DNA from: Candidatus Gastranaerophilales bacterium
GTDB lineage: Bacteria; Cyanobacteriota; Vampirovibrionia; Gastranaerophilales; Gastranaerophilaceae
DNA: 49,473 nucleotides
Direction: 5' to 3'
NCBI GenBank assembly: GCA_944326125.1
Contig: CALVCR010000080.1
Location: 1 to 49,473, forward strand
Part shown: positions 10,396 through 30,044 of the stretch, piece after piece
Numbering within the stretch: the first letter of the stretch is position 1
Layout of the letters: each line of letters starts with the position of its first letter
Made by a program: the position numbers and the translations under genes
The notes under the pieces: model-generated
What the model saw: only the letters and a program-made list of their open reading frames with translations
What the model was told of the DNA's origin: nothing
The model's database searches: none

Positions 10396-11769
10396 ATGTA
10401 CAATGTTGCAATAATAGGGGCCGGACCGGCGGGAATTTTTACTGCGCTGGAAATTGTTAAGCTGAAACCTGAATGGAAAGTTATTCTTATAGAAAAAGGG
10501 CAGAGAATTGAAAAAAGAAAATGCCCTATAAGAGAAGGTTCTCCAAAATGTGTTAATTGTAAACGATGCGGTTTGCTTTGCGGCTGGGGGGGCGCCGGTG
10601 CTTTTTCTGATGGTAAACTTACCCTTACTCCGGATGTAGGCGGTCATCTGGTAGATTATATGCCTAGAGAAAAAGTTGAAGAGTATATTGACTATGCTGA
10701 TAAACTGTATTTAGAGCATGGCGCAACTGATGAAGTCTTTGGAACTAATATGGAAGATTTCCGCGAAATTGAACGTCAGGCGGCTCTTGCCGAACTCAAA
10801 TTAGTTCATTCTCCTGTACGACATCTTGGTACTGAAAGAAGTTTAGATGTATTAAAACATATGCAGGACTATTTGGATGATAAGATTACTATTCTGAACA
10901 ATGTAACCGCACAAAGTCTCATTGTAGAGTGTGAACAGGTTAAAGGCATAGTTCTTGATAATGGTGAAACAATAAGAGCTGAATATACAATTATTGCCCC
11001 TGGCAGAGAAGGTGCTGATTGGCTTACGCATGAATTTGCACAAAATAAAATAGGTATGGTTAATAACGCTGTCGATATCGGGGTGAGAGTTGAACTTCCG
11101 GCTCCGGTTTTTGCTCCGATTACCGATAAATTGTATGAATCAAAGCTTGTTTACTACTCTCCGACATTTGGAGATGAAGTAAGAACTTTCTGTATGAATC
11201 CAAACGGTGAAGTCGTTCAGGAAAACTATAACGGTATAGCTACGGTTAACGGGCACAGCTACGCCAATATTAAAACCAAAAATACAAACTTTGCCCTGTT
11301 AGTCAGCAAGAAATTTACAGAGCCGTTTAAAGAACCTATTGCGTACGGTCAGCATATTGCAAGACTTGCTAATATGCTTGCGGGTGGTATTCTGGTTCAA
11401 AGGTTCGGGGATTTACTTGAAGGACGTCGTTCTACTCCAGACAGAATACGTTCAAGTATAATCACTCCTACTCTTTCCTGCGCTACTCCGGGAGACTTGA
11501 GTCTTGTTATTCCGTACAGGCAGATGAAAAGTATTATAGAAATGCTTTTTGCTCTTGATAAGATTGCTCCGGGAACCGCTTCAAGATATACCCTTTTATA
11601 TGGTATTGAAGTTAAATTCTACTCTGCAAGAGTTAAGCTTACAAACGAGCTTGAAACTGAAGGGGTAAAAAATCTGTTTACAATCGGTGACGGTGCCGGT
11701 GTTACCAGAGGTTTAATCCAAGCTTCGGCTTCAGGAGTATATGTAGCAAGAACAATCTGTAACAGATAA
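10396..11769 (+). CDS. FAD-dependent dehydrogenase, COG2509-like
   Basis: The 457-residue flavoprotein has the dinucleotide-binding GAGPAG at 8-13 and an acidic residue about 20 residues later (VILIEKG). A Cys-rich stretch follows (CPIREGSPKCVNCKRCGLLC, about 43-62) with GWGGAGAFSDGKL. The C-terminal FAD-contact segment is FTIGDGAGVTRGLIQASASG. This pattern matches the uncharacterised FAD-dependent dehydrogenase family. The clustered cysteines could hold a metal or Fe-S centre or act in redox. TAGGAG precedes the ATG. Substrate unknown. It is followed by a bidirectional terminator shared with the sigma-factor gene. Confidence 0.85.
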   Translation: MYNVAIIGAGPAGIFTALEIVKLKPEWKVILIEKGQRIEKRKCPIREGSPKCVNCKRCGLLCGWGGAGAFSDGKLTLTPDVGGHLVDYMPREKVEEYIDYADKLYLEHGATDEVFGTNMEDFREIERQAALAELKLVHSPVRHLGTERSLDVLKHMQDYLDDKITILNNVTAQSLIVECEQVKGIVLDNGETIRAEYTIIAPGREGADWLTHEFAQNKIGMVNNAVDIGVRVELPAPVFAPITDKLYESKLVYYSPTFGDEVRTFCMNPNGEVVQENYNGIATVNGHSYANIKTKNTNFALLVSKKFTEPFKEPIAYGQHIARLANMLAGGILVQRFGDLLEGRRSTPDRIRSSIITPTLSCATPGDLSLVIPYRQMKSIIEMLFALDKIAPGTASRYTLLYGIEVKFYSARVKLTNELETEGVKNLFTIGDGAGVTRGLIQASASGVYVARTICNR

Positions 11770-28139: not shown

Positions 28140-28223
28140 TAGGGGTGAGGTATTAACCGTAGTCACCCAGTCACTTAATCACTCAGTCACTCTCTCTGCC
28201 TCACGCGAAAGAGAGGTGTTAGT

Positions 28224-30044
28224 ATGGTAAGTATTAACACAAACCTTTCGAGCTTGATAGTCCAAAACAGTTTGTCGAAATCCACAAAGTCTTTAAATCA
28301 AGCGATAGAGCGAATGACGACGGGATTTAAAATAAACCACGCAAAAGATAACGCGGCAAACTATTCAATCTCAACAAACATGACCACCAGAATCGGAGCG
28401 TATGAAGTAGCGGAAAGTAATGTAATGATGGGATTGGATTTACTTTCCACAGCGACATCAAGCTTAGATTTGATAAGCAGTCATTTAACACGCTTGAGAG
28501 CTCTGGCAGAACAGGCGGCAAACGGAACGTACGGCGATCAGTCATTGAGTGCGATTCAATCGGAGGCGACAGCACGGTTGGCGGAAGTAAGCCGTATAAT
28601 GACGAATACGGAATATAACGGTATAAAACTATTTGGAGATTCACCTGCTGCAGGCTTTATTGAGGAAGTCACTCCGTTGACTGAAGAAGAAGCTCTTGCC
28701 CAGGGCTATACCGTAATAAAGACTGCGGATGAGCTTCAGGCTATGGCAGATGATCCTAGCGGGAAATATATCCTAATGAATGATATAGATCTTTCAGGAT
28801 ATGCTTGGGAGCCTATCAATGGAAATGATTATACTGGTGGTTATTTTACAGGTGAATTTAATGGAAATGGATATGTAATTAAAAATCTCACAATCAATAA
28901 TCCTACTTCTTATGCTCAAGGTTTATTTGGTTATGCATGTTACGGCGCAGTGATAAAGAATGTTGGACTTGAGAATGTAAATGTAACAGGAAAAAGCGAC
29001 GTCGGAGCTCTTATCGGTTATACAGAAGGTGCTGCTAGTATTACGAACTGCTATGCTACGGGTAATGTATCGGCCAGTGAAAGTACCGCTGGCGGGTTAG
29101 TAGGATGGAATCTGTATAGTGACATTGTTAACTGCTTCGCAGATGTAACTGTAATTACAACCCGAGACAGTGGATCCGTTTTTGGTACTGGCGGGTTAAT
29201 AGGTTTCGGAGAATTTATGAGTATTACAAACAGCTATGCGGCAGGTAATGTAACCGGAAACGAACGTGTTGGCGGGCTGGGCGGAACATTGGATGGAGTG
29301 TCAATTTCACATAGTTATGCTACCGGTAATGTGAATGGCAGCAACTGTGTTGGCGGCCTTATAGGGTATCTTGCCACTAACACAGGTACAAACTCAATTA
29401 GTAGCAGCTACGCAACCGGCAATGTCACAGGTACTAATAATGTTGGAGGTTTAATTGGTCTGGCATGGGTTTACTACGGAAACATTACCATAGCCGACAG
29501 CTATTATGATGCACAGGTGGTTGGACAAACATTAGGTATTGGTACATCCAGTACAGGAAATGGTCGCACAATCACAGGTGATGCGGTTGGGGTAACAACA
29601 TCTGAACTCAATCAGCTTATATCAGACGGAACTCTGCCGTCGTTCGCAAGCAACAATGATGATATTTCAGTAACACTCCAGATAGGCATTGACAGCAGCG
29701 AACATTCATCAATAAGTTTTGATACAAGCTTTGCCATGAATTTGAGCATAAATTTATCAACCTCAGCCGGAGCAAGAGCAGCTCTTACAACCTTGGATGA
29801 AGTGTTAGCACAGGTGAATGCGAAACAAACCGAACTTGGCGCAGTGACTAATCGTCTTGAGAGTGCTTTAGATGAAATCTCAATACAGTATGATAATCTT
29901 GTTTCTTCCCGCTCAACTCTCCGTGATGCTGATATAGCGGAAGTATCAAGCGAATACATCCGACAGCAGATACTTCAGCAGGCAAGCGCAACTCTTCTTT
30001 CCACGGCTAACCAAACTCCTTCAATAGCGCTGCAGTTGTTATGA
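28224..30044 (+). CDS. Flagellin with inserted GLUG-repeat (adhesin-like) domain
   Basis: The 606-residue protein has canonical flagellin ends. Residues 1-138 form N-terminal D0/D1 (INTNLSSLIVQNSL, RMTTGFKINHAKDNAAN, NTEYNGIKLFG). Residues about 510-606 form C-terminal D1/D0 ending in SIALQLL. The variable middle begins with a preamble (MNDIDLSGYAWEPI, FTGEFNGNGYVIKNLTI, about 185-225). About six GLUG-type units follow (VGGLIG, SYATGNVTG and variants, about 255-430). Such units build beta-helices in surface adhesins. The protein should polymerise into the filament and expose the insert. GAGAGGTG precedes the ATG at 28224. The start lies after a repeat-rich leader and no sigma-28 promoter was found. 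Confidence 0.93.
   Translation: MVSINTNLSSLIVQNSLSKSTKSLNQAIERMTTGFKINHAKDNAANYSISTNMTTRIGAYEVAESNVMMGLDLLSTATSSLDLISSHLTRLRALAEQAANGTYGDQSLSAIQSEATARLAEVSRIMTNTEYNGIKLFGDSPAAGFIEEVTPLTEEEALAQGYTVIKTADELQAMADDPSGKYILMNDIDLSGYAWEPINGNDYTGGYFTGEFNGNGYVIKNLTINNPTSYAQGLFGYACYGAVIKNVGLENVNVTGKSDVGALIGYTEGAASITNCYATGNVSASESTAGGLVGWNLYSDIVNCFADVTVITTRDSGSVFGTGGLIGFGEFMSITNSYAAGNVTGNERVGGLGGTLDGVSISHSYATGNVNGSNCVGGLIGYLATNTGTNSISSSYATGNVTGTNNVGGLIGLAWVYYGNITIADSYYDAQVVGQTLGIGTSSTGNGRTITGDAVGVTTSELNQLISDGTLPSFASNNDDISVTLQIGIDSSEHSSISFDTSFAMNLSINLSTSAGARAALTTLDEVLAQVNAKQTELGAVTNRLESALDEISIQYDNLVSSRSTLRDADIAEVSSEYIRQQILQQASATLLSTANQTPSIALQLL

Follow-up and report, generated by a model that had tools for sequence, protein, structure and literature searches.

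The window analysed here, a stretch of 49,473 nucleotides on contig CALVCR010000080.1 of a Candidatus Gastranaerophilales bacterium (GCA_944326125.1), contains a flagellin gene, P0001, in which a GLUG-repeat insert takes the place of the usual variable region (Table 1). The gene is a single uninterrupted frame of 606 codons, with exactly the coordinates, strand and frame given in an earlier note on this DNA, and relatives of the gene are preceded by a ribosome-binding site of the same type. Four Pfam families match the protein, each above its curated cut-off: Flagellin_N (8.6e-28, 97.6 bits, cut-off 26.6), GLUG (6.7e-20, 70.5 bits, cut-off 20.5), Peptidase_M26_N (6.9e-9, 35.7 bits, cut-off 27.7) and Flagellin_C (2.9e-18, 66.4 bits, cut-off 23). 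Both flagellin ends that the note had described as intact and framing the GLUG insert are thus recovered, while its count of about six GLUG units proves slightly high: Pfam recognizes five stretches at E<=1 (three at E<=0.01), to which degenerate units can be added. The Peptidase_M26_N match is absent from the note. The insert contains four cysteines, to our knowledge an unusual feature for a flagellin, and is followed by a strand pair that is probably the D1 hairpin.

Table 1. The flagellin gene P0001 and its surroundings in the window, and loci encoding giant FliD proteins with GLUG/M26_N modules
Feature	Position	Strand	Basis or remark
Dispersed repeats directly upstream of P0001	27805..28160		pieces recur at 28 further genomic sites
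Ribosome-binding site AGAGAGGTG	28210..28218	+	5 nt ahead of ATG; read directly
GLUG-flagellin gene P0001	28224..30044	+	ATG 28224, stop 30042-30044; 606 aa
Flagellin_N (PF00669), residues 4-139, D0/D1 helices	28233..28640	+	Pfam, AlphaFold model
Beta-helix insert, residues ~154-474	28683..29645	+	AlphaFold model; Z 32 to the beta-helix of IgA1 protease
Peptidase_M26_N match (PF05342, non-catalytic region), residues 168-280	28725..29063	+	Pfam
Strongest GLUG motifs (PF07581)	28998..29336 (28998-29072, 29082-29156, 29256-29336)	+	
Strand pair 3' of insert, residues 482-500 (LQVGIDSS...)	29667..29723	+	conserved in alignment; model
Flagellin_C (PF00700), residues 522-606	29787..30041	+	Pfam, AlphaFold model
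Short GTGAATA-type tandem repeat directly downstream of P0001	30075..30150		read directly
Giant FliD with GLUG/M26_N modules	L104 25-18435		FliD_N 54.6 bits and FliD_C 131.3 bits on two halves of one 6137-codon frame
Giant FliD with GLUG/M26_N modules	L128 1935-10901		
Giant FliD with GLUG/M26_N modules	L165 40-7314		
Giant FliD with GLUG/M26_N modules	L166 1075-13539		
Giant FliDs with GLUG/M26_N modules	L105, L106		contig C66 of the genome that contains the window

Predicted structure of the insert and relationship to metallo-IgA1 proteases

An AlphaFold model of P0001, with an alignment of 20 relatives as input, reached a mean pLDDT of 82, with values above 85 for most of residues 151-460. 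A beta-helix between the D1 helices, as proposed in the earlier note, is indeed predicted, mostly with pLDDT above 90, and is wider (residues ~154-474) than the limits of 185-430 suggested there. It is surrounded by helices 6-99, 105-128 and 514-597, which represent the paired D0/D1 helices, and the model aligns with solved flagellins with Z-scores of 17-20. The pTM of the model is only 0.57, too low to tell how the beta-helix is oriented on D1. Glycines in the core of the fold do not vary across the alignment of the 20 relatives. The distant flagellin L045 (738 aa) was also modelled as a beta-helix, spanning approximately residues 200-510; prediction is poor in the stretch that follows.

Residues 154-474 superpose on the beta-helix of a metallo-IgA1 protease of family M26 (7uvk; 277 residues aligned at rmsd 2.6, Z 32.0), and further structures of these proteases (6xja, Z 30.9; 6xjb, Z 30.6) as well as the Bacteroides protein 3n6z (Z 30.1) follow closely. 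Other beta-helices score between 17 and 18.5, among them the pneumococcal surface adhesin PfbA (3zpp, 4mr0; Z 17.4), which likewise displays a beta-helix on the surface and whose resemblance to the insert, weaker than that of the proteases, is one of fold. When the insert alone served as phmmer query, IgA1 proteases were the sole matches, at about 1e-10. In the M26 proteases, the N-terminal beta-helix domain (NTD) moves and thereby admits the IgA1 hinge (PMC7695701, PMC9637739), and the catalytic HEMTH motif and a downstream glutamate lie outside this domain (PMC7695701).

The Pfam match to Peptidase_M26_N and the inclusion of Peptidase_M26 among the putative enzymatic flagellin domains of Eckhard 2017 (PMC5595980) could be taken to mean that P0001 is an M26-class flagellin with proteolytic activity on IgA or other host proteins. 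The match is, however, confined to the non-catalytic N-terminal region. Neither an HExxH motif nor a Pfam match to a catalytic domain was found in P0001, and the variable region lacks the gluzincin metallopeptidase domain by which flagellinolysins are recognized. The middle and C-terminal catalytic domains are missing, and on these grounds the proteolytic reading is rejected as highly improbable. Because the catalytic parts are missing, the insert is homologous specifically to the non-catalytic, substrate-gating beta-helix of the M26 proteases; in contrast to these secreted enzymes, the module is borne here by a flagellar protein. Eckhard 2017 lists 61 domains in flagellin variable regions, 17 flagellins annotated as Peptidase_M26 and read as putatively enzymatic, and 21 with vWFA (PMC5595980). 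The 17 proteins probably carry the same non-catalytic region as P0001, and 'Peptidase_M26' flagellins have thus likely been misread as enzymes.

Occurrence of GLUG flagellins in Gastranaerophilales

Gastranaerophilales are gut-dwelling, non-photosynthetic Melainabacteria. In a draft genome as fragmented as the one studied here (1.7 Mb in 145 contigs, several of which end within flagellin genes), a flagellin and an adhesin gene might have been joined by assembly error or fusion, a possibility that the earlier note had itself raised. The identical join recurs in many independently assembled genomes, in proteins with ~40-65% identity to P0001, such that an artefact can be dismissed with near certainty. 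In a census with local profiles, both flagellin ends and the module were found in one frame in 49 distinct flagellins. Their hosts belong to the genus of the window, to other genera of its family (e.g. L136, L143) and to two further families within the order (one with L098, the other with L091 and L162), and the architecture recurs both among the 57 related genomes studied and in a scan of public genomes. When 58 genomes of the genus were searched with the insert, 45 proved to contain the module. Flagellins from outside the Melainabacteria that were returned by the genome scan, which was not exhaustive (Lachnospiraceae, Eubacterium, Roseburia and others), match through their conserved ends only.

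When the proteins were mapped on a tree of flagellin ends, presence of the module changed five times (at least three changes being forced by supported branches) compared with 35 times in shuffles. A single class of paralogues holds most module-bearing flagellins of the genus, and module-bearing flagellins from other families are placed elsewhere; the plain flagellins in this tree were picked by similarity, and proportions are therefore not readable from it. What the earlier note had taken for a single odd fusion is a genuine fusion but not a single one: it represents an order-wide family, some members of which have more than one copy in their genome, and its module is also found in giant FliD proteins. 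Modules of paralogues within one genome share ~50% nucleotide identity. Several within-genome pairs of flagellin genes are 83-91% identical over their first 150 nucleotides and ~50-65% identical elsewhere; a comparison of within- and between-genome pairs for gene conversion of this 5' part was not significant (p 0.08), with p 0.03 for the C-terminal end.

Some relatives reach 1244-2085 aa and resemble in this respect the giant flagellins with large central inserts described by Thomson 2018 (PMC6248924), from which they differ in that a GLUG beta-helix, by itself or combined with other repeats, stands in place of a DE domain. No GLUG module is present in the flagellin L089 (254-5656; 1801 aa), whose many repeats resemble those of the giant FliDs.

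Giant FliD proteins carrying the same module

The more surprising part of the finding is the presence of the module in giant versions of the filament cap protein FliD (HAP2). FliD frames of ~580-640 aa were found nearly everywhere in an FliD_N search of 57 genomes, the canonical protein of the genus measuring ~580-600 aa. By hand count, 17 of 34 genomes of the window's genus have frames of 957-6137 aa, compared with none of 23 genomes from other families. The module-bearing giants retain FliD_N and FliD_C and comprise 2425-6137 aa in one frame (Table 1); modules were checked in some, not all, giant FliDs. The largest of them (genome G028, contig C158; 6137 codons) combines FliD_N, FliD_C, GLUG and M26_N in Pfam searches and contains 13 module matches according to local profiles. 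In another genus of the same family, we noted a 6603-codon frame with FliD_N and FliD_C (G227) and an 11,061-codon frame that matches FliD_C without a match to FliD_N (G221). Contig C66 of the genome that contains the window encodes two divergent giant FliDs, one as a frame of 2384 codons, the other as 2033 codons continued by 1005 codons in another frame that reach the FliD_C end.

The lengths of the giant FliDs are uncertain owing to short-read assembly; error would hardly yield frames that stay open across thousands of codons. Frame breaks were noted in the GLUG flagellins L030 (6001-7781) and L103 (one TGA) and in the giant FliD L106 (~11117-11147); they may reflect sequencing error, decay or phase variation. 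Among the 34 genomes of the genus, giant FliDs accompany the module in 15 of 24 cases compared with 2 of 10 genomes without it, a difference that is not significant (Fisher p 0.057) and is confounded by draft assemblies.

Exchange of the module and further host proteins

In trees of 117-146 modules, flagellin and FliD hosts are clustered, yet 15-19 host switches are needed to explain their distribution. Strongly supported branches enforce at least four flagellin/FliD switches, and these results also hold without the contigs whose host type is unsure. The module of P0001 groups with three flagellin modules, and FliD modules of genomes G028 and G021 are placed close by. The cassette has thus been transferred repeatedly between the genes for filament and cap. 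Within the order it serves as a general display module and not as a dedicated flagellar part, because it also resides in coiled-coil, ankyrin and prepilin-like proteins. The coiled-coil proteins of ~950-1000 aa (L119 2352-5225 from the genome that contains the window, L120 and L122) have one GLUG module each and are situated, in two genomes, 3' of a frame with an outer-membrane-like C-terminus. L129 (114-3302) unites ankyrin repeats and a GLUG module in one protein. Prepilin-like N-termini (HAFTLPEVLASLAILGIVA, HAFTLAEVLITLAI) precede frames of 6347 and 4702 codons packed with GLUG modules (L150 3539-19900 together with L151; L156 3-14108).

Possible function of the cassette

In other flagellins, the variable position is occupied by the outward-facing D2/D3 domains. 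By analogy, since the insert sits in the D2/D3 position of the established flagellin structure, it would also face outward. We consider it the best explanation, with a probability of roughly 0.6, that P0001 carries an exchangeable, non-catalytic beta-helix display cassette that is present on filament and cap and serves contact, probably adhesion. The gene would encode a probably assembly-competent flagellin that is exported and built into the filament, with a GLUG beta-helix as its outer region. The cassette would have been passed among flagellar axial proteins, with one or few copies per filament subunit and up to a dozen or more per giant FliD, and would most likely stand out radially from the filament and at its tip. 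There it could offer a contact surface, differing from paralogue to paralogue, that binds mucus, host or dietary polymers, or other cells. For the adhesive or glycan-binding filament proposed in the earlier note, the fusion, the beta-helix and its place between the D0/D1 helices are borne out. Adhesion through the insert would be probable and glycan binding conceivable; no ligand-binding signature was found in P0001, and its nearest fold relative is the non-catalytic gate of the IgA1 protease.

The diversity of the modules is also compatible with a hypervariable shield or antigen coat that, by bulk and variation and without a specific ligand, hides or alters the filament towards IgA, TLR5 or phages. 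Several divergent paralogues per genome, the highly diverse module tree and the gut association of the order are in line with this idea; the invariant core glycines and the concentration of modules in the tip protein FliD, a better fit to contact than to a coat, argue against it without being decisive, and we regard it as rather unlikely. Still less probable is a mechanical role, in which the inserts would build a rigid outer layer and so make the filament thicker or stiffer in viscous mucus. Beta-helices are rigid and giant flagellins give thick filaments (PMC6248924), but the many module copies in FliD, a protein located at the tip only, would be left unexplained.

Extending the contact reading, one cassette related to the IgA1-protease gate would be mounted both on the filament and on a giant cap with many modules. 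The flagellum would thereby become a modular organelle of contact, and a tip protein of more than 6000 and possibly 11,000 residues would still have to pass the export channel; we put this broader picture forward tentatively, at slightly less than even odds. Flagellinolysins and other domain-bearing flagellins likewise keep both ends intact around a foreign domain in the hypervariable region (Eckhard 2017, PMC5595980); foreign outer domains as such are known. P0001 differs from them by a non-catalytic beta-helix that is used order-wide and common to FliD, and this reuse of one cassette on filament and cap is new within the literature searched. We found no reports on GLUG flagellins as a family or on giant FliD caps, a weak statement as most subscription journals and all bioRxiv preprints lay outside the search; flagella in Melainabacteria are already known (PMC7018530). 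Our observations suggest that in these gut bacteria, uncultured and non-photosynthetic relatives of the cyanobacteria, the flagellum serves as an organelle of adhesion or recognition, and raise the question of how cells export and assemble a cap protein ten times as large as usual.

Genome setting

The dispersed repeats next to P0001 (Table 1) could help recombination. The position of the gene gives no support, because its neighbours in the window, with the exception of an mfd-like match (39% identity) and a short one, are not found beside the flagellin loci of relatives. Scans of the window for Rfam families and tRNAs gave no hits, and a search upstream of the flagellin genes for a sigma-28-type promoter gave no consistent site. 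The genome encodes flagellar FlhA and FliG and several further flagellins, mostly plain; their number is probably under-counted, because contigs C60, C34, C110, C99 and C143 end within flagellin genes, several of them in the conserved N-terminus. Two full-length FHIPEP-family proteins are present (L196 6296-8404 on contig C60; L198 8056-10164 on C138), one in a flagellar cluster adjoining FlhB-, FliR- and FliP-like frames and the other elsewhere beside a FliH/SctL-like frame. Only the C-terminal part is preserved in a third (L197 5214-6710 on C126). The extra FHIPEP-family proteins possibly belong to a second export apparatus.
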